A DNA stretch of 64,000 nt from the NCBI GenBank assembly GCA_022846075.1, contig AP025582.1, forward strand, positions 1,302,001 to 1,366,000, read 5' to 3'. This stretch comes from Oscillospiraceae bacterium (GTDB lineage: Bacteria; Bacillota; Clostridia; Oscillospirales; Oscillospiraceae). The notes below the pieces were generated by a model. The model saw only the letters and a program-made list of their open reading frames with translations, did not search any database and was not told the DNA's origin. Of this stretch, positions 9,066-59,815 are shown piece after piece (the first letter of the stretch is position 1; every line of letters starts with the position of its first letter). Made by a program: the position numbers and the translations under genes.

Positions 9066-12062
9066 GTGCCGCGCCTGATTTTCAAGTGCCCCTACATCAA
9101 GGGCGGTACCTCCTCCGCCACCGCTCATCTTGAAAACTATGTGAAATATATGGCCACACGGAATGGTGTGGAGCGCATCGATCCGGGACGAAGCGGGTGG
9201 CCGGCCACCTCAAAGCAGAAAAAGATGGTGGAACAGATCCTGCGGGACTTCCCGCTCAGCCGTGGGATGTTTGAATACGAGGACTATGCGGCCGAGCCGA
9301 CACGCGCCAACGCATCGGAGTTCATCACTCGCGCTCTGGAGGACAACTATGACCAGATCGCCAAGAAGGATAACTATCTGAAATACATCGCCACCCGCCC
9401 CCGCGCCCAGCGCGTCGGTTCCCATGGATTGTTTACCGGCGAGGAAGATCAGCTCGTACTGGCGCAGGTAGCGGAAGCGGTCGCGGCCCACCCCGGTAAT
9501 GTGTGGCTGCCCATCATCTCTCTGCGGCGGGAAGACGCCGCCCGTCTCGGCTATGACAAGGCGGAAGAATGGAAAGCACTGCTCTCCAAGTATGCCATGG
9601 AAATGGCGGAGGCGATGAAGATCCCTTGGGAGGATTTCCGGTGGTACGCTGCATTCCATGATGAAGCACACCATCCCCATATCCACATGGTCTGCTACAG
9701 CGCCGATCCGTCGAAAGGCTTCCTCACCACGCAGGGCATCGCCCAAATCAAGTCGGGACTGGCAAAAGAGATCTTCCGGCAGGAGCTGACGGAGCTTTAC
9801 CAGAAGCAGACCCAGAGTAGGAACACGCTGAATGAGGACGCCCGCTCTGTGCTGGAGCAGTTGATTGAACAGATGTGGAGCGGCGCCGTGGTCAACCACC
9901 GCATGGAGAAGCTCATGGAGCATCTGGCGGAACGCCTGCGGCACACCGGAGGCCGGAAGCAGTACGGCTACCTCAAGGCTCCGCTGAAGGCTGTGGTGGA
10001 TGAGATTGTGGACGAGCTGACCAAAGAGCCATGTATCGCCGCAGCCTATGCCCTGTGGTATGAACTGCGGGAAGATGTGCTGCGCACCTACAAGGACGAC
10101 CTGCCTCCACGCCTTCCCCTTTCCCAGCAGAAGGAATTCAAGCGGATCAAAAACATCGTCATTGAGGAAGCGGTAACACTGGGGGCGCGCCAGCAGGTTT
10201 TCCATCCAGATGACCAGCAAGACCGTGTCCCTGTGAAGGACCAGGAAGAAGCGCCGCTGCCGGAGGCGCCCCAGCCTGATAACGACTGGAATGATTTCTC
10301 GGAGTCCCCACCGGACGATGTCCCAGACAAAACGGTGTCTGCGCCAGCCAAAGCGCAGATGAACTGGAGCGATGAGTACCGCCTGGCCCGCCGCTGTTTG
10401 TTTGGCGGCAAGGATCAGCCCCAGGATCTTGAGCAGGCGTTTACCCTGTTCCAACAGGAGGCGCAAAAAGGCAATGCGCTGGCCATGCACGATCTGGGCC
10501 GGATGCTTGCGGACGGGCTGGGCCGGAAGATTGATATGCAGGCCGCCCATGTGTGGTACAGCAAGGCGCTGGCCGCTTTCTACGCTGTTGAGAGGCAGAA
10601 GAAAAAACGCTATACGGAGTACCGGATCGGCAAACTGTATGCCGCGGGCCTCGGCTGTGAGCAGGACTATGGTGATGCCGCCCGGTGGCTCCAACTTTCC
10701 GCAGACAAAGGGTACAAGTATGCGCAATATTCCCTTGCCGGCCTGTTTCGCCGTGGACAGGGTGTGGAACAGGACGATGCACGGGCGCTGGAGTTATACA
10801 CAGCCTCTGCACAGCAGGACTTCCCCTATGCCACCTACGAGTTAGGAAAGATGTATCGGGACGGCATTGGCTGTGAGAAGGACGCCGAAGCGTCGGAACG
10901 GTGGTACCGGCAAGCCTTCGCCGGATTTCTCGAATTGGAGCAGCAGAGCCATGACGATAAATTGCAGTACCGCATCGGATGGATGCTCCTCCATGGTGTA
11001 GGGACTGGTAAAGATGAGGCGGCAGCCAGGGAGTGGTTTGAACAGGCGTCCAAACTGGACAATCCCCACGCGCAGTACCAACTGACCCGGATGATTTTCA
11101 ATGATCCATCCTCTACACCGGAGCAGACAGCCCAGGCATTGGAGCGGCTGACAAAGGCGGCGGAAGCCGGCCAGGACTGTGCTCAATACGCGCTCGGCAA
11201 AATCTATCGGGATGGTCAGGGCGTGGAAAAAGACATTCAAAAGGCGGTGGCTCTGTTCACACTTGCGGCAACGAAGGAAAACAGCTTCGCCGCCTTTGCT
11301 CTTGGCAAGCTGTATCTTGCCGGTGACGCAGCCCTGCCCAGAGACCCGGCGGCCGCACTGAAATGGCTCACATACGCTGCGGAACTTGGGAACCAGTTTG
11401 CCCAGTACCGCCTGGGAAAACTACTGCTGAAGGGAGACGACGGTATCCCAAAGGATGTAATAGCCGCCATCCGCTGGCTTACTGCCGCAGCCAAACAGGA
11501 GAACGGGTATGCGGAATACGCCCTGGCTCTGGTCTATCTCACAGGAGAAGATGCACCCAAAGACAGCGTAAAAGCACTAAGTCTGCTGAAGCGGTCAGCA
11601 GGCCGGGGTAATCAGTTTGCGCAGTACCGGCTGGGCAAGCTGCTGCTCCAGGGGGAAGATGCGCCAAAGGATGTGAAAGCCGCCATCCGCTGGCTCACCG
11701 CCGCAGCGGAACAGGGCAATCAATACGCCCAGTATGCCCTCGGCAAGCTCTATCTGCTTGGGAAGGAGGTCCCAAAAGATAGATCCAGTGCGATCAAGTG
11801 GTTCCAGCTGGCAACGGATCAGGGCAATGAATATGCTCAATATTTCCTGGAACACATGGATGATCGCTTGGGCCAGCCTCCTGTGGCGGCCGTCATTTCG
11901 CTGTTCCACCATCTGGCCAACATTTTCCAGGAGCAAAACCAACCACCGCCCTCCGGTGGCGTCCGGGTCGCGGTGGATCGGAAGCTCCTACGAAAAATCA
12001 AGGCGAAGAAGATCGCTCAGGGCCACAAGGCGGATGACCATGAGCCGGAAATGCAGCTATAA
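9066..12062 (+). CDS. MobP-type relaxase fused to Sel1-like repeats
   Basis: 998 residues from GTG 9066. The N-terminal ~330 residues are a HUH relaxase. The metal-binding motif is HDEAHHPHIHMV at about residues 198-209, and a conserved start MPRLIFKCPYIKGG leads to Tyr residues near 25-29 that could be the nicking residue. Relaxases cut oriT and pilot the strand through the coupling protein. A linker rich in Pro/Asp follows (~375-430). The C-terminal ~435-940 is an array of about a dozen Sel1/TPR-like repeats of the type YAQYRLGKLLLxGEDxPKD, probably a protein-interaction scaffold. The last repeats are very similar to each other, indicating recent internal duplication. NCBI-type MobP3 relaxases have this architecture. 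Confidence 0.9.
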   Translation: MPRLIFKCPYIKGGTSSATAHLENYVKYMATRNGVERIDPGRSGWPATSKQKKMVEQILRDFPLSRGMFEYEDYAAEPTRANASEFITRALEDNYDQIAKKDNYLKYIATRPRAQRVGSHGLFTGEEDQLVLAQVAEAVAAHPGNVWLPIISLRREDAARLGYDKAEEWKALLSKYAMEMAEAMKIPWEDFRWYAAFHDEAHHPHIHMVCYSADPSKGFLTTQGIAQIKSGLAKEIFRQELTELYQKQTQSRNTLNEDARSVLEQLIEQMWSGAVVNHRMEKLMEHLAERLRHTGGRKQYGYLKAPLKAVVDEIVDELTKEPCIAAAYALWYELREDVLRTYKDDLPPRLPLSQQKEFKRIKNIVIEEAVTLGARQQVFHPDDQQDRVPVKDQEEAPLPEAPQPDNDWNDFSESPPDDVPDKTVSAPAKAQMNWSDEYRLARRCLFGGKDQPQDLEQAFTLFQQEAQKGNALAMHDLGRMLADGLGRKIDMQAAHVWYSKALAAFYAVERQKKKRYTEYRIGKLYAAGLGCEQDYGDAARWLQLSADKGYKYAQYSLAGLFRRGQGVEQDDARALELYTASAQQDFPYATYELGKMYRDGIGCEKDAEASERWYRQAFAGFLELEQQSHDDKLQYRIGWMLLHGVGTGKDEAAAREWFEQASKLDNPHAQYQLTRMIFNDPSSTPEQTAQALERLTKAAEAGQDCAQYALGKIYRDGQGVEKDIQKAVALFTLAATKENSFAAFALGKLYLAGDAALPRDPAAALKWLTYAAELGNQFAQYRLGKLLLKGDDGIPKDVIAAIRWLTAAAKQENGYAEYALALVYLTGEDAPKDSVKALSLLKRSAGRGNQFAQYRLGKLLLQGEDAPKDVKAAIRWLTAAAEQGNQYAQYALGKLYLLGKEVPKDRSSAIKWFQLATDQGNEYAQYFLEHMDDRLGQPPVAAVISLFHHLANIFQEQNQPPPSGGVRVAVDRKLLRKIKAKKIAQGHKADDHEPEMQL

Positions 12063-18027: not shown

Positions 18028-18351
18028 TTATTTTCTGATCCAGTCCAGAAAAACAGCTACTTTCTCCAAGTCTTCATCCGGCAGGGCAAGCAGCTTCTTG
18101 CCTATGATCCCACGCAGGGAATCCGGATCGTCCATAGGAGCAAAGAAAAGAGTTGGCGTCAAATCAAAGTATTCCATGATGTTGAACAGCTCCCGGAGAG
18201 AGGGCATAGAAATTCCATTGGTGATGCTTCTGATGTAGGAGCCGCTCTTTCCAAGCTCCAGGCTCATCCGATGCTCAGAAACGCCTTTCTGTTCCCGCAG
18301 CTCTGTGATGCGGTTCCGCACAAACGCTTCATAGCGGCGGTTATCGTCCAT
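18028..18351 (-). CDS. Xre-family transcriptional regulator
   Basis: 107 residues. The Xre/Cro helix-turn-helix spans about residues 14-65 (ITELREQKGVSEHRMSLELG followed by GSYIRSITNGISMPSL). A C-terminal helix (DEDLEKVAVFLDWIRK) likely dimerises. It is divergent from the SLOG gene and the immunity array, with a 190-bp shared regulatory region. It is a reasonable candidate for controlling those promoters, which is an inference from position. Confidence 0.85.
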   Translation of the reverse strand: MDDNRRYEAFVRNRITELREQKGVSEHRMSLELGKSGSYIRSITNGISMPSLRELFNIMEYFDLTPTLFFAPMDDPDSLRGIIGKKLLALPDEDLEKVAVFLDWIRK

Positions 18352-18431: not shown

Positions 18432-18460
18432 TTCACACAACGAATAATTAGTGATATAAT
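18432..18460 (+). promoter_or_regulatory. Promoter of the SLOG gene
   Basis: -35 TTCACA (18432-18437), 17-bp spacer, extended -10 TGaTATAAT (TG at 18452-18453, TATAAT 18455-18460). It is a near-consensus sigma-A promoter in the AT-rich divergent region. Confidence 0.75.
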
Positions 18461-18544
18461 TATTAAAATAGGCGTTGGCTTTATAGTTCTATTATGAATC
18501 ACAATCAATAAAATATGACTGCGACTGTGTATGAGGGCTGTCAG

Positions 18545-19033
18545 ATGGGAAGCTGCTTCTTTATAGGGCATAGGGAGACACCAGATCGGGTGTACCCAAC
18601 CCTGCTTGAAACCATAGAGCGCCATATCACGGAATATGGCGTATCTGAATTTGTGGTGGGGCGGTATGGCAACTTCGACCGTCTGGTGATCCGGGCACTG
18701 TCGCAGGCCAAGCGAGCGCACCCGGATATTACGCTGATGCTGATGACCCCATATTACCCAGTCAACAGAAAGGTGGATCTGCCAGAGGCGTTCGACGCTC
18801 TGTTCTATCCGCCGGATCTGGAAACGGTCCCCAAACGGCTTGCCATCGTCCGCGCAAACCGATATATGGTGGAGCGCAGCGATTTTCTCATCGCCTATGT
18901 GCGGCATCCGGCCAGCAATGCCAGAGAACTGCTGGAGTATGCCGGGACAGGAAAGAGAAAGGGAAAAATCCACATCACAAATTTGGCTGAGGAGCAAATC
19001 TCTCTTCCAAAGAAAACAGATGATGTGATATAA
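18545..19033 (+). CDS. SLOG-family nucleotide-binding protein
   Basis: 162 residues. ATG 18545 with GAGGG upstream gives the typical start MGSCFFIGHRETPDRVYPTL; the longer open frame is not preceded by a ribosome site. It has a Rossmann-like fold with FFIGHRE near the N-terminus and the acidic/Gly patch of the SLOG superfamily (YpsA/DUF1273-like, related to LOG and DprA). SLOG proteins bind nucleotide or nucleotide-derived signals and often occur in conflict systems. Its stop codon overlaps the -10 box of the promoter of the immunity array, so it stands just in front of that array. Confidence 0.75.
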   Translation: MGSCFFIGHRETPDRVYPTLLETIERHITEYGVSEFVVGRYGNFDRLVIRALSQAKRAHPDITLMLMTPYYPVNRKVDLPEAFDALFYPPDLETVPKRLAIVRANRYMVERSDFLIAYVRHPASNARELLEYAGTGKRKGKIHITNLAEEQISLPKKTDDVI

Positions 19034-19034
19034 T
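19005..19034 (+). promoter_or_regulatory. Promoter of the polyimmunity operon
   Basis: An extended -10 TGaTATAAT (TG 19026-19027, TATAAT 19029-19034) has a weak -35 TTCCAA (19005-19010, 18-bp spacer). It shares GTGATATAAT and a following AAAATAG with the SLOG promoter at 18432-18460. It overlaps the end of the SLOG gene. It is the only convincing promoter that I see in front of 37 kb of co-directional genes. Confidence 0.6.
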
Positions 19035-19083
19035 AAAATAGTAAAGTATACCCATTTAGAAATTTGTAACCCGAGGTCTTGCT

Positions 19084-19257
19084 ATGGAAGAAAAACTGGG
19101 ACAGTCCACGGCTGTTCTGTTCAAATATGAAAAATTGATTTTGGCTGAAGAAGAAACCACATCCGCTGGTGGATGTGGCGTCTCCCTTGCGGCCTTTTCA
19201 TGCCCTGCGTCAGCCTGTCCAAGTGACAGGGTGTCGCGGGGATTTTTTATTGTCTAA
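19084..19257 (+). CDS. Possible leader peptide of the immunity operon (57 codons)
   Basis: ATG 19084 has GAGG at 7-nt spacing. The frame encodes MEEKLGQSTAVLFKYEKLIL, then a Ser/Ala/Cys-rich tail with three Cys codons, and ends at TAA 19257, just before the ribosome site (19261) of the first array gene. Both hairpins of the leader (19157-19178 and 19203-19250) lie inside it. Translation of this frame would therefore interfere with terminator folding. It may be a leader peptide, or simply an open frame across a structured leader. Confidence 0.35.
   Translation: MEEKLGQSTAVLFKYEKLILAEEETTSAGGCGVSLAAFSCPASACPSDRVSRGFFIV
19157..19250 (+). terminator. Leader hairpin and intrinsic terminator (attenuator) of the immunity operon
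   Basis: The first hairpin is CCACATCC / GGATGTGG (19157-19164, 19171-19178). The second is two-part: CCCTGCG pairs with CGCGGGG and, inside, CCTGTC pairs with GACAGG, followed by ATTTTTT. It ends 11 nt before the Shine-Dalgarno GAGGTGAT (19261), so the array cannot be transcribed without passing it. Confidence 0.75.
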
Positions 19258-19273
19258 ACAGAGGTGATCAAGC

Positions 19274-20656
19274 ATGAGCTTACCAAAGCGCGATGGTGTA
19301 AATGACCGTTATTATCTGATACATAAACCGGACACTTCACCAGAAGTACTGGCGGAGGCGGATCTCTGCATTCAGGATGTGCTGAACGGCACCGCCCGTG
19401 AAAATCACTCCGCCTACCCGACCGTGGTGCGAAACCACAACGGGACGCCATTTCTCCCTGATCAGCTGCTGGAGCGGTATCTGACCGAGCTGCCGTTGAA
19501 AGGATTTCCCTGTGAGGATGCTGTCTCTCTCTGCGACGCCATGCGGCGGCTGGTGGGCTGGCAGGAGATCCGCTATACATTGGAGAAGTATATAGAAAAG
19601 CAGGTGCAGGAGCGGTATTTTGAGGTCGGAGAGAAAGAGGATTACTTTTCGCCTTTTCCCCCCTGCACGGTGTGGCCGGAATTGCGCCCGGAGAATGTGG
19701 ACGAAAACCTGCTGCGCTTTGCCTGCTATGTGGCTATCTGCCATACCGTGTACGGGCAGAGTTTTGAATCCCTTACCACCGAACACATCCTCGGCCTGGT
19801 TTCCCAGATTCGTCCTGACATGGTAAAGGAACTGAAAGCCAATGGCAGCGGCAAATTGCCGCCTAATATCCAGAAGCGGAAAACAAAGCACCTGACCGCC
19901 TCGGCCAACGACGCTTTCGCCACCATCCGCATTACCGCCAGGGACTGCGGCGAGGGGGCCTGTGAGGAGGCTCTCAGCTATCTGATTGAGATTTTGGAGC
20001 AGCCGGAGTTCCCCCGCAGCTACTCCATCGAGTTTCGCGGACCGGAGAAGATCTACCTGCCCATCCCCGGCCTGCCCAAGAAGGGTGTCCATCAGCTTTT
20101 TGCCTGTGCGGTGCGGTATCCCCGTCTCCATGTCCGGATGGAGAATTATGCTCGGCTGGCCATGCAGGAGGACGAGTGGTACAACAACCTCTCTGATGAG
20201 TCCTGCGCCATGCCTGGCACCTTTGCCGTGTTTGCCCTGGGACTGGAAGGGCCGAAGTGGTGGCGGCTGGTGTGCGATTACCTGGATCGCTGTGATGACG
20301 AGCACTCCTCTTTGCAAGAAAAGTTTATTCACACCTTTTTTAAGAAGTACGGGTTTACTGCTCAGTCCCTGCCGGTGTTGGTCCACGGTGTCCAGTCCAT
20401 GCAGAATCTGAAGCCCGCAAAGGAGTTCCGCACCCTGATCGCCAATGAGGAGAGCCTGGATGCTCTGATGGAGATCAAAGGGCATTTGGAATATTACCTG
20501 CCGGAAGAATCCGGCAATGACAAAAGGGCGCTGGCCTACCTGTGGCGTGATGTGCTCTGGGCCATCTGGGGCACAGCCTCTGAAAACGGCGGCAGCAAGG
20601 TCATCAAGACGGCGCCCAAGGAACTGAAAGAGAAATACCAGCAGGTATTTGCGTAA
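19274..20656 (+). CDS. First gene of the immunity array; possible DUF6138-like protein
   Basis: 460 residues from ATG 19274 (GAGGTGAT). It is a largely helical soluble protein. The N-terminus (SLPKRDGVNDRYYLIHKPDT) is followed by HEAT-like helices and a C-terminal ~200 residues with KGVHQLFACAVRYPRLHVRM. Its length and pattern remind me of DUF6138, but this is a weak match. Genes of this kind recur in polyimmunity loci of Firmicutes. No toxin or enzyme motif is visible. Confidence 0.55.
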   Translation: MSLPKRDGVNDRYYLIHKPDTSPEVLAEADLCIQDVLNGTARENHSAYPTVVRNHNGTPFLPDQLLERYLTELPLKGFPCEDAVSLCDAMRRLVGWQEIRYTLEKYIEKQVQERYFEVGEKEDYFSPFPPCTVWPELRPENVDENLLRFACYVAICHTVYGQSFESLTTEHILGLVSQIRPDMVKELKANGSGKLPPNIQKRKTKHLTASANDAFATIRITARDCGEGACEEALSYLIEILEQPEFPRSYSIEFRGPEKIYLPIPGLPKKGVHQLFACAVRYPRLHVRMENYARLAMQEDEWYNNLSDESCAMPGTFAVFALGLEGPKWWRLVCDYLDRCDDEHSSLQEKFIHTFFKKYGFTAQSLPVLVHGVQSMQNLKPAKEFRTLIANEESLDALMEIKGHLEYYLPEESGNDKRALAYLWRDVLWAIWGTASENGGSKVIKTAPKELKEKYQQVFA

Positions 20657-32570: not shown

Positions 32571-33161
32571 ATGAGCCGAATCGTCGATGAACCCTGCTTT
32601 ACATATAGCGCCTTCACCACCGGCATCCAGGTAAAATGCCCCAAGTGTCACGGCGCAGGTATTGTAACAGCGGATGAGGATAACGCCTATTTCCGCTGCC
32701 TGAGCTGCGGCCACCGGATGACGCAGGATCGGACGATCTACCGTTATGATGTCCATAACCAATGCAAAAACTGCGGCAGGTACTACCGAGTGGATATTGA
32801 AGATACGGCAAAGCAGCGCTTTCCCGTCCTCCATGTGGCCTGTCCCTACTGTGGGACAACCATGCCGGGCGAGGTACACAAGACGGCGGAGGCTTTCTCC
32901 TATGGTGCGGAGATTCAGGGCGGCAAGGACCCCTGGTTCGGCCTGGAACTGTGGTTTTTGACCTCATTCCAGGGTAAGCCGGTCTGGGTCCTCAACCGGG
33001 AGTACCTCGCCTATCTGATCGGCTATCTCAGCGCCGACCTGCGGGAAAAGCCATCGGGAAGCCAGAAAAAGACCCAGGCCGACCATCTCCCCACCTTCAT
33101 GAAAACCGCCAAGAACCGGGGGCGGATCGTGAAGCTGCTGAAGAAGCTACAGGAGGGATGA
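32571..33161 (+). CDS. Multi-zinc-ribbon protein (196 residues)
   Basis: Three Cys pairs: CPKCHGAG, CLSCGHRM and CKNCGRYY, plus CPYCGTTM, in the first ~110 residues, consistent with two zinc ribbons. A conserved FGLELWFLTSFQGKPVWVLN strand-helix follows, then a basic C-terminus. It occurs in similar arrays; nucleic-acid binding is possible. The stop region overlaps the reading frame of the next gene, whose ribosome site lies inside this one. Confidence 0.65.
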   Translation: MSRIVDEPCFTYSAFTTGIQVKCPKCHGAGIVTADEDNAYFRCLSCGHRMTQDRTIYRYDVHNQCKNCGRYYRVDIEDTAKQRFPVLHVACPYCGTTMPGEVHKTAEAFSYGAEIQGGKDPWFGLELWFLTSFQGKPVWVLNREYLAYLIGYLSADLREKPSGSQKKTQADHLPTFMKTAKNRGRIVKLLKKLQEG

Positions 33162-33163
33162 GG

Positions 33164-34294
33164 ATGGATCAGAATGTCCTTTATCGTGGTCAGCGTCTTA
33201 CCCTGACGCGGTTTTGGGCGACGGGAGAGCCTTGCCTGTGGATCACCGACCCGGAGCAGATCGGGATGCCTAAAATGGAATTTGTGGGAGGCCACCCGGA
33301 CGAATACTGCATTTTCCTGAAAAATCTGACTGAAACAGAGCTGGCACAGATCACATCCCTGGACGGCGCTCCGCTGGATGTAAAAAAAGAACTTCGACAG
33401 TTTCTAACAGGAAAGGACAACCCTATGGCACTACAAGATAAGAAAATCATGCCTCCCCCTTGGCTGGCCCACCGGGAGATCGAGCGATACTCCATTGGCT
33501 GGCGCATGGGCTATGGGGAGGATTACATAGACCGATTTGGCGATTGGCTGGACACCCTTTCCCCGGAGGAGCGGACGGAATACCGCACTCTCTTTCCCGA
33601 GCCGGTGACCTGGAAGGGCTGGTGGGATGACGAGGACAGGGTTGAGGTGCTGACGCACGGCGACTTCCTGGTGGAGGCGTGGCAGCCGGAGGGCAGGCCC
33701 AAGTACACCCGCCAGTGGTTCCAGCAGGAGTTTACCGCGGGACGGAAGCGGGAGCTGTGCCTGTTCTGGGGGCATCAGCCTGCCCAGGACGGCCAGCTGA
33801 CAAAAAGCTGCCTCAGCCAGTGGTGGATGGAGGACTTCTATACGACGGCTGACTCCTACCTCTGCATGGAGCAGTACATGATGGCTGCCAAGGCCGAGCT
33901 GTTCGGCGACAAAGAGATCCGGGACCAGATTTTGAAATGCAGCGACCAAAAGCAGATCAAGGCCCTGGGCCGCAAGGTGCGGGGCTTTGATCAGAAGGTA
34001 TGGGACAAGTTCAAGTACGCCATTGTGCTACTTGGCAACTGGCACAAATTCAGCCAGAACCGCGAACTGCGGGAGTTTTTGCTTTCCACCGGGGACAGCG
34101 TGCTGGTGGAGGCCAGCCCCTACGATGCCATCTGGGGCATCCGCCTCGCGGCCTGTTCACCGGAAGCCCAGGACCCGATAAAGTGGCGCGGACAAAACCT
34201 GCTGGGCTTTGCGCTGATGGAGGTGCGGGACGAGCTGCGCCGAGTGACACAGAATGAAATGCTTTGCGATTGGAGTACAGTATGGCAACAATGA
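33164..34294 (+). CDS. NADAR-domain protein (ADP-ribose N-glycosidase family)
   Basis: 376 residues. ATG 33164 is chosen because AGGAGGG sits 6 nt upstream; ATG 33158 directly touches it. The C-terminal ~190-360 is a NADAR (YbiA-like) domain: FWGHQP, then LSQWWMEDF, AEQ-type EQYMMAAKAELFGD, KALGRKVRGFDQKVWDKFK and LVEASPYDAIWGIRL with GQNLLGFALMEVRDEL. NADAR enzymes remove ADP-ribose from nucleobases such as guanine and act as antidotes to ADP-ribosylating toxins (established for several). The N-terminal ~130 residues are a separate unknown domain. Its place in the array supports a detoxification role. Confidence 0.85.
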   Translation: MDQNVLYRGQRLTLTRFWATGEPCLWITDPEQIGMPKMEFVGGHPDEYCIFLKNLTETELAQITSLDGAPLDVKKELRQFLTGKDNPMALQDKKIMPPPWLAHREIERYSIGWRMGYGEDYIDRFGDWLDTLSPEERTEYRTLFPEPVTWKGWWDDEDRVEVLTHGDFLVEAWQPEGRPKYTRQWFQQEFTAGRKRELCLFWGHQPAQDGQLTKSCLSQWWMEDFYTTADSYLCMEQYMMAAKAELFGDKEIRDQILKCSDQKQIKALGRKVRGFDQKVWDKFKYAIVLLGNWHKFSQNRELREFLLSTGDSVLVEASPYDAIWGIRLAACSPEAQDPIKWRGQNLLGFALMEVRDELRRVTQNEMLCDWSTVWQQ

Positions 34295-38358: not shown

Positions 38359-41300
38359 ATGTATATCAAAAAATACTGGGGCAACTTTATCGGAGGCTCG
38401 GACGACAGCCTGAACCTTGTGGCATTTTTGGAGGATCAGAAACAAGAGGAGATCCCCCTCAGCGAGATTTTCGCCAAGATTGGTCTGGACAAGCAGAACT
38501 GGGACTTCCGCCAGACCGTGGAGTATCTGGAGTTCACCCATTCGGACGGCGTGGAGATGGACTTCCACTTCGCCATTGATGTGGTCACCGACCTGGCCGC
38601 CATCCTGCTGGAGTGCAGCGTCAGTGGCAGTGTAAACCTTCAGGATCTGGACGAGTACAACACCCCCGCCCGCCGTATCCGCATCACTGCTACGCCGGAG
38701 GAGCACGAGGCCATGGACAAGGCCCTGGCGGACTTTGTCCATGCCCCGCTGGAATACGACATCAGCGAGATGATGGGCGAGGATGAAATCACGGATATGG
38801 CTTCTCAGGTGGAGATGCTGCGGAAGGAGCTGTACGAAGCCTCTGGCCGCAACCGGAACTACCATGTAAAGGCGGAAGATGTAAAAGATCTGCTCCCCGA
38901 CTGGGAGGGTGCCGATGGCTGTATCGCCACCAACCGCATCACAGTGGAGGGCTGCAAGGTTGGCTACTGCTGCAGGGAGAAGCCGGACGGCGGCTGGGAC
39001 AGCGGCTGGCGCTTCACCGCTGGTGACGAGAGCGAGGCGTACATGGACGACCCCAACAACGCCGGGATTTACAAGCTGAACACAATTTGCAACGACGATC
39101 CCGACATCATTCCTCTGCTGAACACCCCCGCCCCCTGCGCCTTTGAGCGGGATGAGAACGGTGTGTTCCAGCAGATCAAAGACTGGAAACCGGATGAGGA
39201 CGAGGAGGACCCTGATATGGACATTTTGAAGCAGTGCCAGAAGTGGCATGAGGAGAGCAAACAACATAAAATTATTGATGCGCTGGAGGCCATCCCCGCC
39301 GAGGAGCGTACCCCTGAGATGGACAGCGAGTTGGCCCGTGCCTATAACAATCTGGCAGACCCACATAAGCCAACTTGCAAAGAAATGCTCAAAAAGGCCC
39401 TCGCTCTGCTAAAGCCCCATGAGGAATACTTCGAGGACGATTATTACTGGAACTTCCGCATGGGTTACTCCTACTTTTATCTGGATCAGGAGGGCCGGGC
39501 TCTGCGATATTTTGAAAAGGCATTGGAAGCTCGACCTGGTGACGAGGACACCAAAGAGTTTATCGACCGGTGCAAAAAGGGTATTTCTCTGCCGCAGTTC
39601 TGGGAGTGCTTCCGGGAGCGGACAGAGAACTGGTGGGAAACCTTTGCCGAGATGGAAGCAGAATTGCGCCAGATGATGGATGAGGACAAAGATCACACCC
39701 GCGGCGCAGAACTCGTGGCCCAAATGGAAGGGGCTTTGAACCAGGCGTTTGACGAAATCTCCTTCGAGATGGGCTTCAATGGCGAAAAGCATGAGTTGAT
39801 CCTCACCCCGGAGGGCGACAAGGTCAAGCTGTTTGAGCTGATTTACTTCCAGAAGCACGCCCCCAAGGAGGTGCTGGAGCACTGGAACATCCTTGTGGGC
39901 CGTCAGCCCCTCCAGAACATCGGTCTGCGTACTGAGAATGGCTGGGACATCTCCGGGGATGATGTGCAGATCTGGCTGGAGGAGGAGGGTGAAAACAGCT
40001 TCGCCATCTCCGCCTACTGTGAAAAGCTGCTGCCTATGCTCCGGGATGAGGAAGGCCGGGCCTGGTGGATGCTCACCACCCTCACCGACCAAGTGCTGGG
40101 CGAGATCCCCCACATGAGGTACATAGACAGCTTTGATGTGCTGGAGGAACCCAAGGCAGAGCCGTCCATTCTTATGTCCCAGCTTCCCGACGCTCTGAAG
40201 GAGCGGGGGCTGGAGCTCTCCACCGATCCGGAAGCCTATCTGGAGAGCTACCTTGGATACAAAATGGAACCCAACCAGGACCCGGATGCCGACTGGCGGC
40301 TGGACACCATGGTGGGCTCCACCTGCTGTGTGCCGCTCATCAACGGCTACCTGAACGCCGACAATGACTTCATGGACGATCTCCATGCTGACGGCGCAGT
40401 AGCGGGCTTCTTCTGCTATCCTCTGGATACCCTGCGGGAGGAGGAAGGCAGTCAGAAGATCTTTGACTTCCGGGACAAGCTGGAAGAAGTGTTTACCACT
40501 GATGAAGGATCGGAAGTGCTCACTCTCACCGGCGGGGCTACCGGCCTCTACTGTGGCTATGTGGACTTCATCGCCTGGGACATCCAAGAGGCGCTGAACA
40601 TGGCGAAAGAGTTCTTTGAAGGCACGGACATCCCATGGGCCATCTTCCACACCTTCCGCCGTGAAGCCGGTTCTGTATCCCTAAAGCAACAAGATGATGG
40701 GACAGAAACTGAGAATCAGGATGACGAGTTGGACGAAACGCTGACGGGCATGGACTATATTCCTTACACCCAACAGAACGCCGAAGCATTCTTCGCTCAG
40801 CTGGAGCAGTGGAACGACGAAGACGAGTACACCCGCTGTATCCAGGCACTGAATGCCATCCCGGAGAACTGGAGGAACTACCGCACCGCCTACGCCCTGG
40901 CCCGTGCACTGGAGAACTACGCCATCATCGGGGACCATGACGAAGGTACTTTGAAATCCAAGGGAGACAAAGCCCTTCTGAGGGCCATTGAGGTTCTGGT
41001 GTCCGTCCGGGAGGAAGGCCAGAACAAGGCCCAGTGGAATATGCGGATGGCCTATGGCTATCAGTATCTCTACGGCCAGGAGGAAAAGGCCATTCCCTAC
41101 GCCGAGCGGTGGGCGGAGCTGGACCCGGAGGATGAAAATGCTCCGGCGGTAATTCGGGAGTGTAAGGCGGAGATCCGGAAACGCCAGCGCAGCCGGAAGA
41201 AGAAGGCCAAATTCGTGCCCGGTGATACCCCATTTGAGGGCTTCGACCTCACCAACTTCTGGGATGATAATTGGTATGCACTGAAAGAATATGTCAGTGA

Positions 41301-44300
41301 TCCGCCTTCCGATGAGCTGATTGCCAGCGTGGAGGAGGAACTGGGCTACAAGCTGCCCGCCGCCTACATTTGGCTGATGAAGCAGCACAACGGCGGCATT
41401 CCGGTGAACACCTGCTATCCCTGCGATGAGCCTACCTGTTGGTCAGATGATCATGTGGCCATCACCGGCATTTTCGGAATCGGACGGGAAAAGAGCTGCT
41501 CCCTCTGTGGAGAGCTGGGCAGCCAGTTTATGATCGATGAGTGGGAGTATCCTGCCATCGGTGTGGCCATCTGCGACTGTCCAAGCGCCGGACACGATAT
41601 GATTTTCCTGGACTACCGGGCTTGCGGTCCCCAGGGAGAGCCTGCGGTAGTCCATGTGGATCAGGAAAATGACTATAAAATTACCCATCTGGCAGATAGC
41701 TTTGAGGAATTTATCCGCGGACTGGAGCATGAATCCCTCTATGATCCGGATGAAGATGCAGAGGGTCTTGAGGATGACGCCGACGAGGAGGAAACCGACC
41801 ATAAGGGTTCCTTTGCCGGATCTGTGCTCCTCTCCAAAGCAGAGTGGGACAAGGAGCAGTTGATTCGAGATCTGCGGGAAGAATGGGGTATCGTAGATGA
41901 GGAGCCGGATGAGGGCGACGAAGATGTTGAGAACAGCGATGACGCTGTGGTAATGCGGGTCGGCAATATGATGCTGATCGTGACACTATTCCACGGTCAC
42001 ATCCCTGACAATGAAGCAGAGATCAACGCCGAAAACAACTATATGTGGCCAGAGGCCGTAGAAGTGGCCAAAACGCACAAGGCCCATATCATGGTGGCTG
42101 TGTTGGGCGAGGAGGAAAAACTGCTGGAACGGGGTAAGCTGTTCACTAAGGCGATGGCAGTGTGCTGCAAGCAGAAATATGCCACCGGTGTCTACACCAG
42201 CGGCGTGGTATTTGAGCCTCGTTTCTATGAGGGCCTTGCCGATATGCTCAAAGAGGACGAACTGCCCATCTTCAACTGGGTTTGGTTCGGCCTGTACCGG
42301 AGCGAGGGGGGCCTAAACGGCTACACCTACGGCATGGATGTGTTTGGCAAGGAGGAAATGGAGGTGTTGAACACCGACGCTGAGCCGGAGGAACTGCGGG
42401 ACTTTTTGGCCAGCCTTGCCTCCTATGTGCTGGCGTGTGATGTCACACTGAAAGATGGCGAGACCATCGGTTTTGATGCAGATGATAAGCACACCATCAC
42501 CCGCAGCTCTGGCGTCGGACTGCCGGAGGAGCAGATGACTCTGAAAATCTCCTGGGCGTCATCAGACGATGACCCTGACGATGACGGTGATGACCCGGAC
42601 GGCGAAATGCCCGAGGATGAAGAAGCCGGTGTTCCCGAGGTCTACACCGGGGAGGAGATGGAGGCCGTCGAGGGGCACATTGAGCAGTATTTCGGCGAGG
42701 TCGAGAATGTGTTCCACGAGATCGTTTCCCCCGACATCCATGTGGACATCTGCATCGTGCCGCCCACTGAGGAGCGGGACTATTACACCCTGGTCACCAT
42801 GGGCATGGGCGCCCACCGGATGAATGTGCCGGAGGAACTGGCGGAATACAAGCTGGAGCGGGCGGAGCTGGCCATTGCACTGCCTGCGGACTGGAAGCTG
42901 GATCGGCAATCCATGCAGGACGAGCGGTGGTACTGGCCCATCCGCCTGCTGAAGGTTCTGGCCCGCCTGCCCATTGCCAGCGATACCTGGCTGGGCTTCG
43001 GTCATACCATGGACAATGAGGAGGACTTTGCGGAAAATACGAAGCTGTGTGCCGCCATTCTCACCGGCCCCCAGAGTACAGAGGAGGGCGGCGAGGTCGG
43101 CACACTCCCAGGCGGCGAGGAGGTCAACTTCTATCAGGTGATCCCCCTCTACCGGGATGAATTGGAATATAAAATGGAGCATGATGCAGATGCCCTGTTG
43201 GACAAAATGAACGGCATCAGCTTTGTGGTCAATCCCACCCGCCAGAATGCTATCACCCGTAGCACCCTTTCCAATGATGATTTTGACGGCGAGATGGACG
43301 ACGCTTCCTATCACCTTGAGAGCATTGAGGAGAAGGAACTGCCTATTGACCCCATCAATGCTTATAACCACATGGCCATCTACTTGCGCTGGTGCATGGA
43401 GCACGACCTGATGGGTGAAGAATTCCTTGCAGAGTACGGAGAGGTGGCAGAAAAGGTCAAGGCTGATCCTGCCAGTGTGGATCTGCGGGCGTTTATCCGG
43501 GATGAGCTGGACGGCTGTCTGTTCTCTGTGCTGTTCAATCAGCAAGGCCGTGCCTTTGCAGGCTATTACTACGGAGAGGGCGACAGCCCCTACTATCCTG
43601 CCGATGTTGACGACAACGCACTCCGCTTCTTCGGCCCGGAGCGGTATCACTCCGATGAGTTCCAGGATGAAGCCTACCTGTTCATCCCCTTTGAAGAGGA
43701 CTACTATCAGGCTATGGCAGAGGTGATCGAAGAACGCTTTGAAAACTGGCAGGGACAGGACTTCGACGAGGACACGCTGGAGCCCTCCGAGGTGGCTCAG
43801 GCCATCATGGAGTATCTGGACTGCGAGTGTACCTATTTCCCATCCATGGCAGACGATGACCCCATCATGTCGGCATACAGCTATGCCAAACGGGAAAGCA
43901 TCCAAGAGGGCTTTGTTCCCGTGCTCATCAAGGCGGATGACGAGACGCTGTTGGAGTGTCTGGTAATGAACGCCGACCCGGAGCACGATGCGGACTTCTA
44001 TGAATTTGACCTCAAAACGGTAACGGAGTATCGAAAGAAGATGCTCTCCGCTCCCGTCAAGGACGGAAAGGCGGTTTTGGAGGAATTGACCGGCCAGCGT
44101 AAGGAAGAAGCCGAGGACGATGATCTGAACTGGGAGGAGGAAGTCCTGGGCGAGATGGAGGGCGGCTATGACAACGACCGCTTCTCCTGCTACTGGGACT
44201 CGGACAGTCACATGACATATCCGCTCATTTTGGCTAAAATTCCGGTAAAGAACCCCTGGGAGATCTTCGCCTATCTGCCCTTTGGAAATTGGAATGAGTG

Positions 44301-44556
44301 TCCCGACACCCCGGAGCTGATGGCGGTGGCAAAATACTGGTTCCAGCGGTATGGCGCCATCCCTGCCGCCATGAGCCACGATGAGTTGGAGTTCCTGCTC
44401 CCGGCCCCTGTTTCTAAAGAGATGGCCATGGAGGTTGCCACAGAGCAGTACGGCTTCTGCCCGGACATCGTGGATCAGGAGCAGGATGACCCCACTGTGG
44501 GCAATCTGGCAGATGTTCTGTGGCAGTCCACCGTCTGGTATTTCTGGTGGGATTGA
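38359..44556 (+). CDS. Giant polyimmunity protein (2,065 residues; Imm51-like, DUF2185, TPR, SUKH, DUF4261, SUFU, DUF4253)
   Basis: Domains in order: ~1-140 Imm51-like (YWGNFIGGSDDSLNLVAFL). ~167-270 DUF2185/Imm33-like (SGWRFTAGDESEAYMDDPNN, IYKLNTICNDDPDIIPLL). ~287-410 TPR-like helices. ~412-770 unassigned. ~808-936 second TPR-like block. ~963-1122 SMI1/KNR4 (SUKH) (LGYKLPAAYIWLMKQHNGGI). ~1150-1399 DUF4261 (SVLLSKAEWDKEQLIRDLRE). ~1428-1636 SUFU. ~1668-1830 unassigned (AYNHMAIYLRWCMEHDLMGE). ~1850-2065 DUF4253 (KNPWEIFAYLPFGNWNECPD). Acidic linkers (~1123-1145, ~1400-1425) separate domains. No signal peptide, no toxin domain and no membrane helix. Single proteins with several immunity domains are known as polyimmunity proteins; this one is exceptionally long. 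It lies 3 nt after the DUF4259 stop. Confidence 0.85.
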   Translation: MYIKKYWGNFIGGSDDSLNLVAFLEDQKQEEIPLSEIFAKIGLDKQNWDFRQTVEYLEFTHSDGVEMDFHFAIDVVTDLAAILLECSVSGSVNLQDLDEYNTPARRIRITATPEEHEAMDKALADFVHAPLEYDISEMMGEDEITDMASQVEMLRKELYEASGRNRNYHVKAEDVKDLLPDWEGADGCIATNRITVEGCKVGYCCREKPDGGWDSGWRFTAGDESEAYMDDPNNAGIYKLNTICNDDPDIIPLLNTPAPCAFERDENGVFQQIKDWKPDEDEEDPDMDILKQCQKWHEESKQHKIIDALEAIPAEERTPEMDSELARAYNNLADPHKPTCKEMLKKALALLKPHEEYFEDDYYWNFRMGYSYFYLDQEGRALRYFEKALEARPGDEDTKEFIDRCKKGISLPQFWECFRERTENWWETFAEMEAELRQMMDEDKDHTRGAELVAQMEGALNQAFDEISFEMGFNGEKHELILTPEGDKVKLFELIYFQKHAPKEVLEHWNILVGRQPLQNIGLRTENGWDISGDDVQIWLEEEGENSFAISAYCEKLLPMLRDEEGRAWWMLTTLTDQVLGEIPHMRYIDSFDVLEEPKAEPSILMSQLPDALKERGLELSTDPEAYLESYLGYKMEPNQDPDADWRLDTMVGSTCCVPLINGYLNADNDFMDDLHADGAVAGFFCYPLDTLREEEGSQKIFDFRDKLEEVFTTDEGSEVLTLTGGATGLYCGYVDFIAWDIQEALNMAKEFFEGTDIPWAIFHTFRREAGSVSLKQQDDGTETENQDDELDETLTGMDYIPYTQQNAEAFFAQLEQWNDEDEYTRCIQALNAIPENWRNYRTAYALARALENYAIIGDHDEGTLKSKGDKALLRAIEVLVSVREEGQNKAQWNMRMAYGYQYLYGQEEKAIPYAERWAELDPEDENAPAVIRECKAEIRKRQRSRKKKAKFVPGDTPFEGFDLTNFWDDNWYALKEYVSDPPSDELIASVEEELGYKLPAAYIWLMKQHNGGIPVNTCYPCDEPTCWSDDHVAITGIFGIGREKSCSLCGELGSQFMIDEWEYPAIGVAICDCPSAGHDMIFLDYRACGPQGEPAVVHVDQENDYKITHLADSFEEFIRGLEHESLYDPDEDAEGLEDDADEEETDHKGSFAGSVLLSKAEWDKEQLIRDLREEWGIVDEEPDEGDEDVENSDDAVVMRVGNMMLIVTLFHGHIPDNEAEINAENNYMWPEAVEVAKTHKAHIMVAVLGEEEKLLERGKLFTKAMAVCCKQKYATGVYTSGVVFEPRFYEGLADMLKEDELPIFNWVWFGLYRSEGGLNGYTYGMDVFGKEEMEVLNTDAEPEELRDFLASLASYVLACDVTLKDGETIGFDADDKHTITRSSGVGLPEEQMTLKISWASSDDDPDDDGDDPDGEMPEDEEAGVPEVYTGEEMEAVEGHIEQYFGEVENVFHEIVSPDIHVDICIVPPTEERDYYTLVTMGMGAHRMNVPEELAEYKLERAELAIALPADWKLDRQSMQDERWYWPIRLLKVLARLPIASDTWLGFGHTMDNEEDFAENTKLCAAILTGPQSTEEGGEVGTLPGGEEVNFYQVIPLYRDELEYKMEHDADALLDKMNGISFVVNPTRQNAITRSTLSNDDFDGEMDDASYHLESIEEKELPIDPINAYNHMAIYLRWCMEHDLMGEEFLAEYGEVAEKVKADPASVDLRAFIRDELDGCLFSVLFNQQGRAFAGYYYGEGDSPYYPADVDDNALRFFGPERYHSDEFQDEAYLFIPFEEDYYQAMAEVIEERFENWQGQDFDEDTLEPSEVAQAIMEYLDCECTYFPSMADDDPIMSAYSYAKRESIQEGFVPVLIKADDETLLECLVMNADPEHDADFYEFDLKTVTEYRKKMLSAPVKDGKAVLEELTGQRKEEAEDDDLNWEEEVLGEMEGGYDNDRFSCYWDSDSHMTYPLILAKIPVKNPWEIFAYLPFGNWNECPDTPELMAVAKYWFQRYGAIPAAMSHDELEFLLPAPVSKEMAMEVATEQYGFCPDIVDQEQDDPTVGNLADVLWQSTVWYFWWD

Positions 44557-49781: not shown

Positions 49782-50141
49782 ATGTCACAGATCGCATCCT
49801 TTTACCTTCTCAAAGACGGCCGGCGGCAGGAACTGTCCAACGGCGACTGCTCTGGCGCGGTCTATATGGCCATCTGGGACTGGTGTGAGAGCGAACTGGA
49901 TCTGGATGTCCGTTTTCCTGCTCCCCAGACGGAGGACACCCTGGACTGCGCTCTGCTGGAGGGAGAGCTGGCGTCTCAACTGCTGTCAGCTCTGCGGGAG
50001 CAGGACCTCCCGGAGCTGGCCGCTGAAATTGCCCCGGACTGGGATCTGCCCACCGAGGCGGTGCAAAGCGGGCTTGAAACGCTGCGCTCCCATCTGGAAC
50101 TGGTGCAGGGCGACGCTGCCCTGCTGTATGAGATGACTTGA
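49782..50141 (+). CDS. Small acidic immunity-like protein (119 residues)
   Basis: AGGAGG precedes ATG 49782. Strongly acidic, helical protein with aromatic N-terminus (SQIASFYLLKDGRRQELSNG; VYMAIWDWCESELDLDVRFP). No recognised family. The acidic character and position make a toxin-mimicking immunity role plausible but unproven. Confidence 0.5.
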   Translation: MSQIASFYLLKDGRRQELSNGDCSGAVYMAIWDWCESELDLDVRFPAPQTEDTLDCALLEGELASQLLSALREQDLPELAAEIAPDWDLPTEAVQSGLETLRSHLELVQGDAALLYEMT

Positions 50142-50176
50142 CGGGGCCATGCCCCATAGAATATTGCGAGGAAATT

Positions 50177-51385
50177 ATGATCGAAATCAAAGGAAAATAC
50201 AATGAGGCCAAGATCTTCACCGATGTGGTGGACAGCGCCTCCATCGCACAGGTTCAGGAACTGTGCAATCAGGAATTTACGGCGGGTAGCCGCATCCGGC
50301 TCATGCCCGACATTCACGCCGGGGCGGGCTGTACTATCGGCACCACCATGACCATCACCGACAAGGTGGTGCCCAATCTGGTGGGTGTGGACATCGGGTG
50401 CGGCATGGAGACCACCCGCATCCGGGAGGGGCGGCTGGAGCTTCAAAAGCTGGACAAGCTGATTTATGAAAAGATCCCCTCCGGCTTCTCCATCCGGGAT
50501 AAGGCCCACCGCTACCTCAATGAGATCGACCTGAGTGAGTTGTGCTGTGCCCGCCATGTGGATCTCCTCCGGGCGGAAAAAAGCATCGGTACGCTGGGTG
50601 GTGGGAACCACTTCATTGAGGTGGACAAGGACGACGAGGGAAATCTCTACATCGTGGTCCACTCCGGCAGCCGTCACTTGGGTGTGGAGGTGGCCAGCTA
50701 TTACCAGGAGGCGGGCTATAAGGTGCTCAACCGCACTGACGATGCCTCCATCGAGGCGCTGATTGCCCGAATGAAAGCGGAGGGCCGGGAGAAGGAGATC
50801 CAGAAAGAACTGAAGAAACTGAAAAACCTCAAGCAAACCAACATCCCCAAGGCCCTGGCCTATGTGTCCGGAGAGTTGTTTGAGCAGTATATCCACGACA
50901 TGAAGATCGTCCAGCACTTCGCCATGCTCAACCGGCAGGCCATGATGGACGAGATCGTCAAAGGCATGAAGCTCCATGTGGAGGAGCAGTTCACCACCAT
51001 CCACAACTATATCGATACCGACGCCATGATCCTGCGGAAAGGAGCTGTGTCCGCCAAAGAGGGCGAGCGACTGCTCATCCCCATCAATATGCGGGACGGG
51101 AGCCTGCTCTGCGTGGGCAAGGGTAACGAGGATTGGAACTGCTCTGCTCCCCACGGCGCCGGCCGCCTGATGAGCCGGGCGGACGCCAAACAGTCCTTCA
51201 CGGTGTCTGAATTCAAAAAGCAGATGGCAGAGGTCTACACCACCTCGGTGAGCAAGGCCACCCTGGATGAGTGCCCCATGGCCTACAAGGGGATGCAGGA
51301 CATTCTGGATAATATCGGCCCTACGGCGGATGTGGTAAAGATCATCCGCCCTATCTACAACTTCAAGGCCGGGGACGAGGATTGA
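50177..51385 (+). CDS. rtcB: RtcB-family RNA ligase
   Basis: 402 residues from ATG 50177 (GCGAGGAAA). The Mn-binding block is GVDIGCGMETTR (about 69-81), then GGGNHFIEVDKD (about 141), HSGSRHLGV (about 162) and HGAGRLMS (about 326, bearing the guanylylated His). RtcB joins 2',3'-cyclic phosphate ends to 5'-OH ends, repairing RNA such as tRNA cut by ribonuclease toxins. In E. coli-like operons it is paired with RtcA; here it stands alone in the immunity array, so repair of toxin-cleaved RNA is the natural inference. Confidence 0.9.
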   Translation: MIEIKGKYNEAKIFTDVVDSASIAQVQELCNQEFTAGSRIRLMPDIHAGAGCTIGTTMTITDKVVPNLVGVDIGCGMETTRIREGRLELQKLDKLIYEKIPSGFSIRDKAHRYLNEIDLSELCCARHVDLLRAEKSIGTLGGGNHFIEVDKDDEGNLYIVVHSGSRHLGVEVASYYQEAGYKVLNRTDDASIEALIARMKAEGREKEIQKELKKLKNLKQTNIPKALAYVSGELFEQYIHDMKIVQHFAMLNRQAMMDEIVKGMKLHVEEQFTTIHNYIDTDAMILRKGAVSAKEGERLLIPINMRDGSLLCVGKGNEDWNCSAPHGAGRLMSRADAKQSFTVSEFKKQMAEVYTTSVSKATLDECPMAYKGMQDILDNIGPTADVVKIIRPIYNFKAGDED

Positions 51386-58453: not shown

Positions 58454-58554
58454 GGGCCGGGACGCTGTAAAGTGTCCCGGCCCGCTGTATTCCTGCCGCA
58501 ATATGGCGGCAGGGATCAGCCGGGGATGCAGAAATGCGTCCCCGGCTATTTTTC
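58454..58554 (+). ncRNA. Structured leader: two hairpins and an intrinsic terminator
   Basis: Hairpin 1: GGGCCGGGAC / GTCCCGGCCC (58454-58463, 58474-58483). Hairpin 2: CCTGCCGC / GCGGCAGG (58492-58499, 58506-58513). Hairpin 3: AGCCGGGGA / TCCCCGGCT (58518-58526, 58539-58547) followed by ATTTTT, a typical terminator. All lie between the -10 box at 58401 and the coding region at 58665, so transcription of the gene needs antitermination. Confidence 0.7.
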
Positions 58555-59180: not shown

Positions 59181-59815
59181 AAACCGAATATCCGATTGTC
59201 TGAATACTTTCCTGACGGGGCCCCTGCTGGACAGGGGCAAGCGACGCTGGAGGATGCGCGAAAACCACCTGTAGAGGTTCTGGTACAGGCTGCAAACGAA
59301 GTCACCTATACATTTTTGTTCGGTTATGACAGCCTGCCGGATTTCCCCTCTATCAACGACGGCCAAATAAGGTGCCAAGCGGGTCCATCCGTCCAAAAAA
59401 CAGCCTGTGGCAAGCTGTATCGCAATGACTCCGCCAGGGATAATGATACTTCCGTCCAGTCACAGCCCCCACCGAAATGGGGATCAAGCAATGAGGGCGG
59501 CCGACAGAGATCCTGCCGGGGGTGAGAGTCCCATGACGCGGTGAAGCCAGCCGCGGTTCAGATGGTCGCCCTACGGAGCCAGCGCCAGTGGCGCAGGCTT
59601 TTGCGCTTGGGGAAGTAGTGTCGAATACGAGCGCAGCAGAAGACAACACAAATGTGGAGTCTTAATATCAGAAGCTATGGGGATCGCTTCTGTCCAAAAC
59701 CCGTTTACTGACCGGAACATGCCGTATGAGCAGCCATTCCAACCAGATGCGGGAGATGCGGAGGCGGTCCCTATTTTTGTGATATTAAGCCCAATATGCT
59801 GAGGAGGTGTATTCT
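59181..59815. other. Long non-coding region with many hairpins (candidate structured RNA)
   Basis: About 630 bp without a convincing gene. Hairpins include CCCCTG / CAGGGG (59221-59226, 59232-59237), and a GC-rich core around 59510-59620 with GGGTGAGAGTCCC, CCGCGG and CAGCGCC/GGCGC-type pairings. An inverted pair CTTAATATCA / TGATATTAAG (59661-59670, 59780-59789) brackets the last 130 bp before the MazF gene. I see no known riboswitch signature. Confidence 0.45.

Follow-up and report, generated by a model that had tools for sequence, protein, structure and literature searches.

A putative ribosome-gated transcription attenuator as a conserved leader of polyimmunity arrays in Clostridia

An array of immunity genes of approximately 39 kb, found in a 64-kb window (the whole stretch of Oscillospiraceae DNA analysed, 64,000 nucleotides), is preceded by a short leader in which an intrinsic terminator is enclosed by an open reading frame (ORF) of 57 codons. 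In total, about 45 copies of this leader were found in gut bacteria from many Clostridia, and all but one decayed copy sit before the same kind of array. Judged from the layout, the leader is fairly likely to be a coupling-type transcription attenuator gated by the ribosome, like those of pyrBI and bmrB, and the ribosome would probably determine if transcription enters the 39-kb cluster at all. Ribosome-gated attenuation is already known, and what is new is its place as a constant, mobile head on shuffled polyimmunity arrays. Large orphan immunity arrays take up tens of kilobases and yet have to be in place ahead of an attack. With a conserved gate at the array head, the way in which they are expressed becomes testable with small reporter constructs.

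The polyimmunity array

The array lies on a single strand (19274-58348, + strand). Its first gene codes for a DUF6138 protein (PF19635; 19274-20656, +), and further inside there is a gene for a multidomain polyimmunity protein of 2065 aa (38359-44556, +) carrying Imm68, Imm33, SUKH, DUF4261, SUFU, DUF7832 and DUF4253 domains (Pfam). Single genes of the array belong to the NADAR, RtcB, UPF0167, DUF1963, DUF2262, DUF3885, DUF4259 and DKNYY families (Pfam). Polyimmunity loci are described as heterogeneous arrays on one strand, in which immunity genes stand together with multidomain polyimmunity proteins and which are thought to be polycistronic (PMC3482391). With its tandem same-strand genes from several immunity superfamilies, the array fits such a heterogeneous polyimmunity locus. 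The NADAR and RtcB genes (33158-34294 and 50138-51385) possibly provide immunity functions related to NAD/ADP-ribose and RNA repair.

Architecture of the leader and extent of the transcription unit

The leader comprises, in this order, an extended -10 element, a GAGGT ribosome site, the 57-codon ORF, an upstream hairpin (P1), the terminator and the DUF6138 gene's own ribosome site. The terminator, presumably active in vivo, consists of a stem-loop (19203-19241, +; CCCTGCGTCAGCCTGTC-CAAGT-GACAGGGTGTCGCGGGG) followed by a T-run (19243-19248), and was identified by folding, a covariance model and covariation. Its minimum free energy is -28.5 kcal/mol (z -5.7 against dinucleotide shuffles), and the covariance model scores 74.2 bits at 19203-19248 and no more than 12.9 bits anywhere else in the window. 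The first array gene starts with an ATG at 19274 and its ribosome site (AGAGGTGA, 19260-19267, +) follows the T-run after a gap of 11 nt, which leaves no room for a promoter downstream of the terminator. This tight spacing and its coordinates had been correctly noted in the original prediction, as had a frame with a ribosome site running through both hairpins. The latter corresponds to the ORF at 19084-19257 (+; ATG at 19084, TAA at 19255-19257), which spans P1, the terminator and the T-run and is preceded by GAGGT at 19073-19077 (+), and which is presumably translated. P1 occupies 19143-19194 (+) with a core stem formed by CCACATCC (19157-19164) and GGATGTGG (19171-19178). In the leader, no leader or riboswitch family reached the gathering score in an Rfam search.

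A promoter that had gone unmentioned in the original prediction is predicted just upstream (TTCCAA-18-TATAAT, 19005-19034, +), with transcription expected to start near 19041. Its extended -10 element (TGATATAAT, 19026-19034) overlaps the stop codon of the preceding gene (18515-19033, +), which codes for a protein of 172 aa that was assigned as SLOG-like by eye and has no Pfam or NCBIfam match. The SLOG-like gene has a predicted promoter of its own with the same extended -10 element (TTCACA-17-TATAAT, 18432-18460, +; -10 at 18452-18460), and these two TGNTATAAT sites are the only ones on the + strand of the 64 kb. Within the array, no extended -10 site was found on the + strand, and the promoter-like matches there are few, all weak and none of promoter quality. 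The lack of room for a promoter behind the terminator and the weak matches inside the array make it likely that all transcription into the array passes the terminator, as had been claimed. The length of the array had been given as 37 kb; the first strong + strand terminator after the leader is located only at 58518-58547 (+), the likely end of the transcription unit, so that the unit measures approximately 39 kb.

Distribution of the leader

A related leader with its array was found by DNA search on a Subdoligranulum plasmid, and a scan of genome contigs with two leader peptides revealed 26 further loci in Anaerotruncus, Flavonifractor, Oscillibacter, Enterocloster, Eisenbergiella, Faecalibacterium, Holdemania, Hungatella and others. 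All of these except one sit at the head of the same kind of array. The exception, a Flavonifractor locus (L009), is a decayed copy: its T-run is damaged, and downstream of it the 3.4-kb scaffold was found to contain no array gene. Profile and gene searches of whole genomes added the divergent leader types C to F. In addition, a terminator-only covariance model was run on 394 genomes, in which full-length members scored at least 45 bits and ordinary terminators approximately 40 bits or less, the exception being type C, whose members have a longer 5' arm. This model contributed eleven more leaders, one of them a second copy in locus L020, and two of the leaders precede arrays that open with SUFU or SUKH genes. 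No matching leader was detected in the phage records and IMG/VR contigs searched.

Among the loci of the contig scan, the first array gene varies and codes for a 460-aa DUF6138 protein, a 371-aa zinc-ribbon protein or a 77-aa protein. The 5' end of the array, right behind the terminator, is a site of gene gain and loss. In five loci (L010, L011, L014, L025 and L030) compared with the window, the leader stays and the first array gene is swapped. Several genomes have two or three leaders (L007/L008, L014/L016 and L011/L018; G650, G781 and G802), Anaerotruncus colihominis DSM 17241 has two, and in L020 the second leader is of the TetR type and lies on the opposite strand, approximately 5.8 kb from the first.

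Features shared by the leaders

The terminator is conserved as a structure. Pairing is kept in 85.6% of the cells (22 distinct sequences), and nine of the 19 pairs changed on both sides compared with 4.1 in shuffles (0/500). The signal was lost when the pairing partners were slid, and covariation of the terminator was also seen in the first 11 sequences.

The second shared feature is the ORF. In all leaders examined, an ORF starting with ATG about 100-140 nt upstream of the terminator is open through the terminator 5' arm. Among test leaders chosen by the terminator model alone, such an ORF, with its start at 95-140 nt, was present in ten out of ten (1.4 expected, P ~2e-9), and in a coarser test set in seven out of seven (P 8e-7); both values ignore kinship, related sequences inflate the leader counts, and the start window of -140 to -95 was fixed after leaders had been inspected. 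A point against the coupling reading is that a recognisable ribosome site precedes the ATG in only about half of the test leaders (5/10, still P 2e-6). The first shuffle test, which demanded an ORF of at least 35 codons together with a ribosome site, was passed by seven of the eight leaders and failed by L038 because its ATG is without a good ribosome site. In every intact type the ORF enters or crosses the terminator, and across the types it is read in each of the three frames with respect to the terminator, which means that it is no by-product of one conserved frame; on the other side of the balance, the GC-rich terminator itself is often open in more than one frame. This layout, found in every intact type and in the independent test set, and the covariation of the terminator together argue well for the ribosome-controlled attenuation that had been proposed from the window sequence.

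In most types the ORF stops less than approximately 20 nt from the start of gene 1 or overlaps it, an arrangement that would also suit an unregulated brake. Here the terminator would hold the expression of the costly 39-kb operon constantly low with no signal sensed, and the ORF would only keep the terminator leaky or raise the translation of gene 1 by reinitiation. The variable peptide and the lack of a conserved alternative structure described below would also be in line with such a brake. In types E and F and in the equivalent ORF of L038, however, the stop codon falls within the 3' arm of the hairpin, at least 39 nt from gene 1, so that reinitiation cannot cover all cases, and the start distance of the ORF is kept at 95-140 nt. 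Altogether, we regard the brake as rather unlikely.

The promoter, the upstream neighbours, the ORF sequence and the first immunity gene all vary across the leaders. Types A, B, C, E and F carry an extended -10 element that lies 41-118 nt ahead of the ORF, and type D follows a TetR-like gene and has no clear promoter of its own. An XRE/SLOG-like pair is the kind of neighbour found before type B1, TetR before type D and XRE before type F. Intrinsic terminators commonly sit after genes, and the structure could in principle merely end the SLOG-like transcript, with the array driven by unseen internal promoters. We find this scarcely conceivable: the terminator goes with the head of the array and not with the upstream gene, which changes between types, a promoter intervenes between that gene and the terminator in the five types with the -10 element, and the + strand of the array is without an extended -10 site.

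Peptide, RNA and protein candidates

The leader peptide is hardly under selection. Its dN/dS values (0.82 for types A-B, 0.67 for A-C and 0.65 for B-C) resemble those of the other frames in the same pairs (0.64-1.07), and its N-termini are wholly different between types. A conserved stalling peptide was rejected on these grounds, and such low constraint suits a coupling gate better than a stalling peptide. A trp/his-type amino-acid attenuator was also dismissed, as the peptides contain no regulatory codon run and there are no alternative hairpins.

Mutually exclusive RNA structures, a check suggested along with the original prediction, were not found: once the terminator is forbidden, even the best fold loses 13-28 kcal/mol in stability, and the pairings replacing the terminator differ between types. 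An RNA antiterminator was consequently rejected as unlikely, and with no conserved mutually exclusive structure the ribosome itself is likely to be the gate. The same results bear on a stall-responsive attenuator of the bmrB/vmlR kind, in which an antibiotic or a translation-blocking toxin would hold the ribosome in the ORF, so that an RNA antiterminator forms and the array is turned on. Many polymorphic toxins are RNases, and a translation sensor would thus suit an immunity array. The bmrB leader, moreover, has the same layout in a Gram-positive host, a 54-codon leader gene enclosing the terminator (PMC4191407). Against this stand the energy gap with its type-specific pairings and the lack of a conserved stall peptide, which make the stall-responsive reading improbable.

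The antitermination factor that had been offered as an alternative to ribosome control found no support. The genome contains a single, housekeeping NusG gene, in secE-nusG-rplK; no paralog is present, which rules out a LoaP-type factor for this host. More generally, a processive antiterminator, either a protein or an RNA (LoaP-, EAR- or put-like), could modify the polymerase at the leader, with P1 as the recruiting element. A 39-kb operon with no clear internal promoters would benefit from such a factor, and most types have a hairpin immediately before the terminator. P1, however, is strong in types A and C and weak in B and D (z -1.5 to +0.2; types A-D were scored), and its sequence is not common to the types; as a universal structured element it was upheld only in part. 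Together with the lone NusG and the absence of an Rfam match, this renders processive antitermination highly improbable.

Proposed mechanism

The one feature common to all types is that a ribosome would be carried onto the terminator 5' arm, which favours the coupling-type attenuator. In this model, the polymerase would start from the extended -10 promoter at 19026-19034 and produce a leader RNA of approximately 200 nt, and a ribosome would load on the short ORF, which begins some 115 nt ahead of the terminator. If this ribosome followed the polymerase closely enough to sit on the 5' arm, it would block the hairpin, and the predicted translation-driven read-through would lead to transcription of the 39-kb array. 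With no ribosome on the 5' arm, the RNA would end at 19243-19250. The peptide would be a vehicle only.

As to the controlling condition and its direction, termination may be the default, relieved by a slowing of the polymerase or by a ribosome kept on the 5' arm. Bacillota are classed as bacteria with runaway transcription (PMC13323073), which makes default termination plausible. The same property speaks against a coupling gate, as a trailing ribosome may rarely be near enough unless the polymerase pauses, and a NusG pause motif (TTNTTT) was not found conserved upstream of the terminator, the leader having only a short TTTT in GCGGCCTTTTC.

Comparison with known systems

The two general features of ribosome-dependent attenuators, a conserved leader terminator before the first gene and an ORF that would bring the ribosome onto it, are both recognisable in the sequences. 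In E. coli, ribosomes near a terminator suppress termination, and the pyrBI terminator lies within the leader peptide gene (PMC4824070, citing Roland 1988). The present leader resembles pyrBI in that the ORF encloses the terminator, no antiterminator is needed and the peptide sequence is free. In pyrBI the peptide sequence is unimportant and UTP is sensed via U-rich pause sites. No U-rich pause tract was identified in the leader described here, which would control a mobile polyimmunity array of Clostridia and not, as pyrBI does, a biosynthetic operon in Proteobacteria. Types E, F and L038 differ further, as their ORF stops inside the terminator 3' arm and not beyond it.

Within the Bacillota, the closest layout is that of the bmrB leader of bmrCD, where the terminator also lies inside a leader gene directly upstream of the controlled gene; in Bacillus subtilis this gene has 162 nt and 54 codons, and read-through is ribosome-dependent (PMC4191407). 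The bmrB leader has a predicted antiterminator and anti-antiterminator and responds to ribosome-targeting drugs, whereas the present leader is without a conserved antiterminator. In layout, the leader also resembles that of Tn916 tet(M). There, a short leader ORF and terminators are found on a Gram-positive mobile element with drug-resistance cargo. The array itself is similar to the one-strand heterogeneous loci of Zhang et al. 2012, to which the conserved leader is an added element; the accessible part of the main polyimmunity paper makes no mention of an attenuator or terminator (PMC3482391).

If the proposed mechanism is true, ribosome-gated attenuation, known from drug-resistance and biosynthetic genes, also serves interbacterial immunity on mobile elements. 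Tentatively, and with some doubt, the leader might be seen as a dedicated, horizontally shared expression head, in which the attenuator is kept while the promoter, neighbours and first gene are swapped. The state of the translation machinery would then switch a reservoir of immunity genes, and a toxin attack could itself change immunity expression. As a practical matter, a 54-base tag locates array heads in genomes.

Genomic surroundings of the array

In the window, the array is preceded by a conjugative element with a MobP3 relaxase and a VirD4-like coupling protein. The relaxase (9066-12062) is fused to a long stretch resembling repeat-rich (Sel1/TPR-like) families. An XRE-type regulator (18028-18351, -), divergent from the SLOG-like gene (18515-19033, +), precedes the leader. 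Just past the likely end of the array, a pemK RNA motif (Rfam RF02913, 64 bits) is located at 59440-59536.
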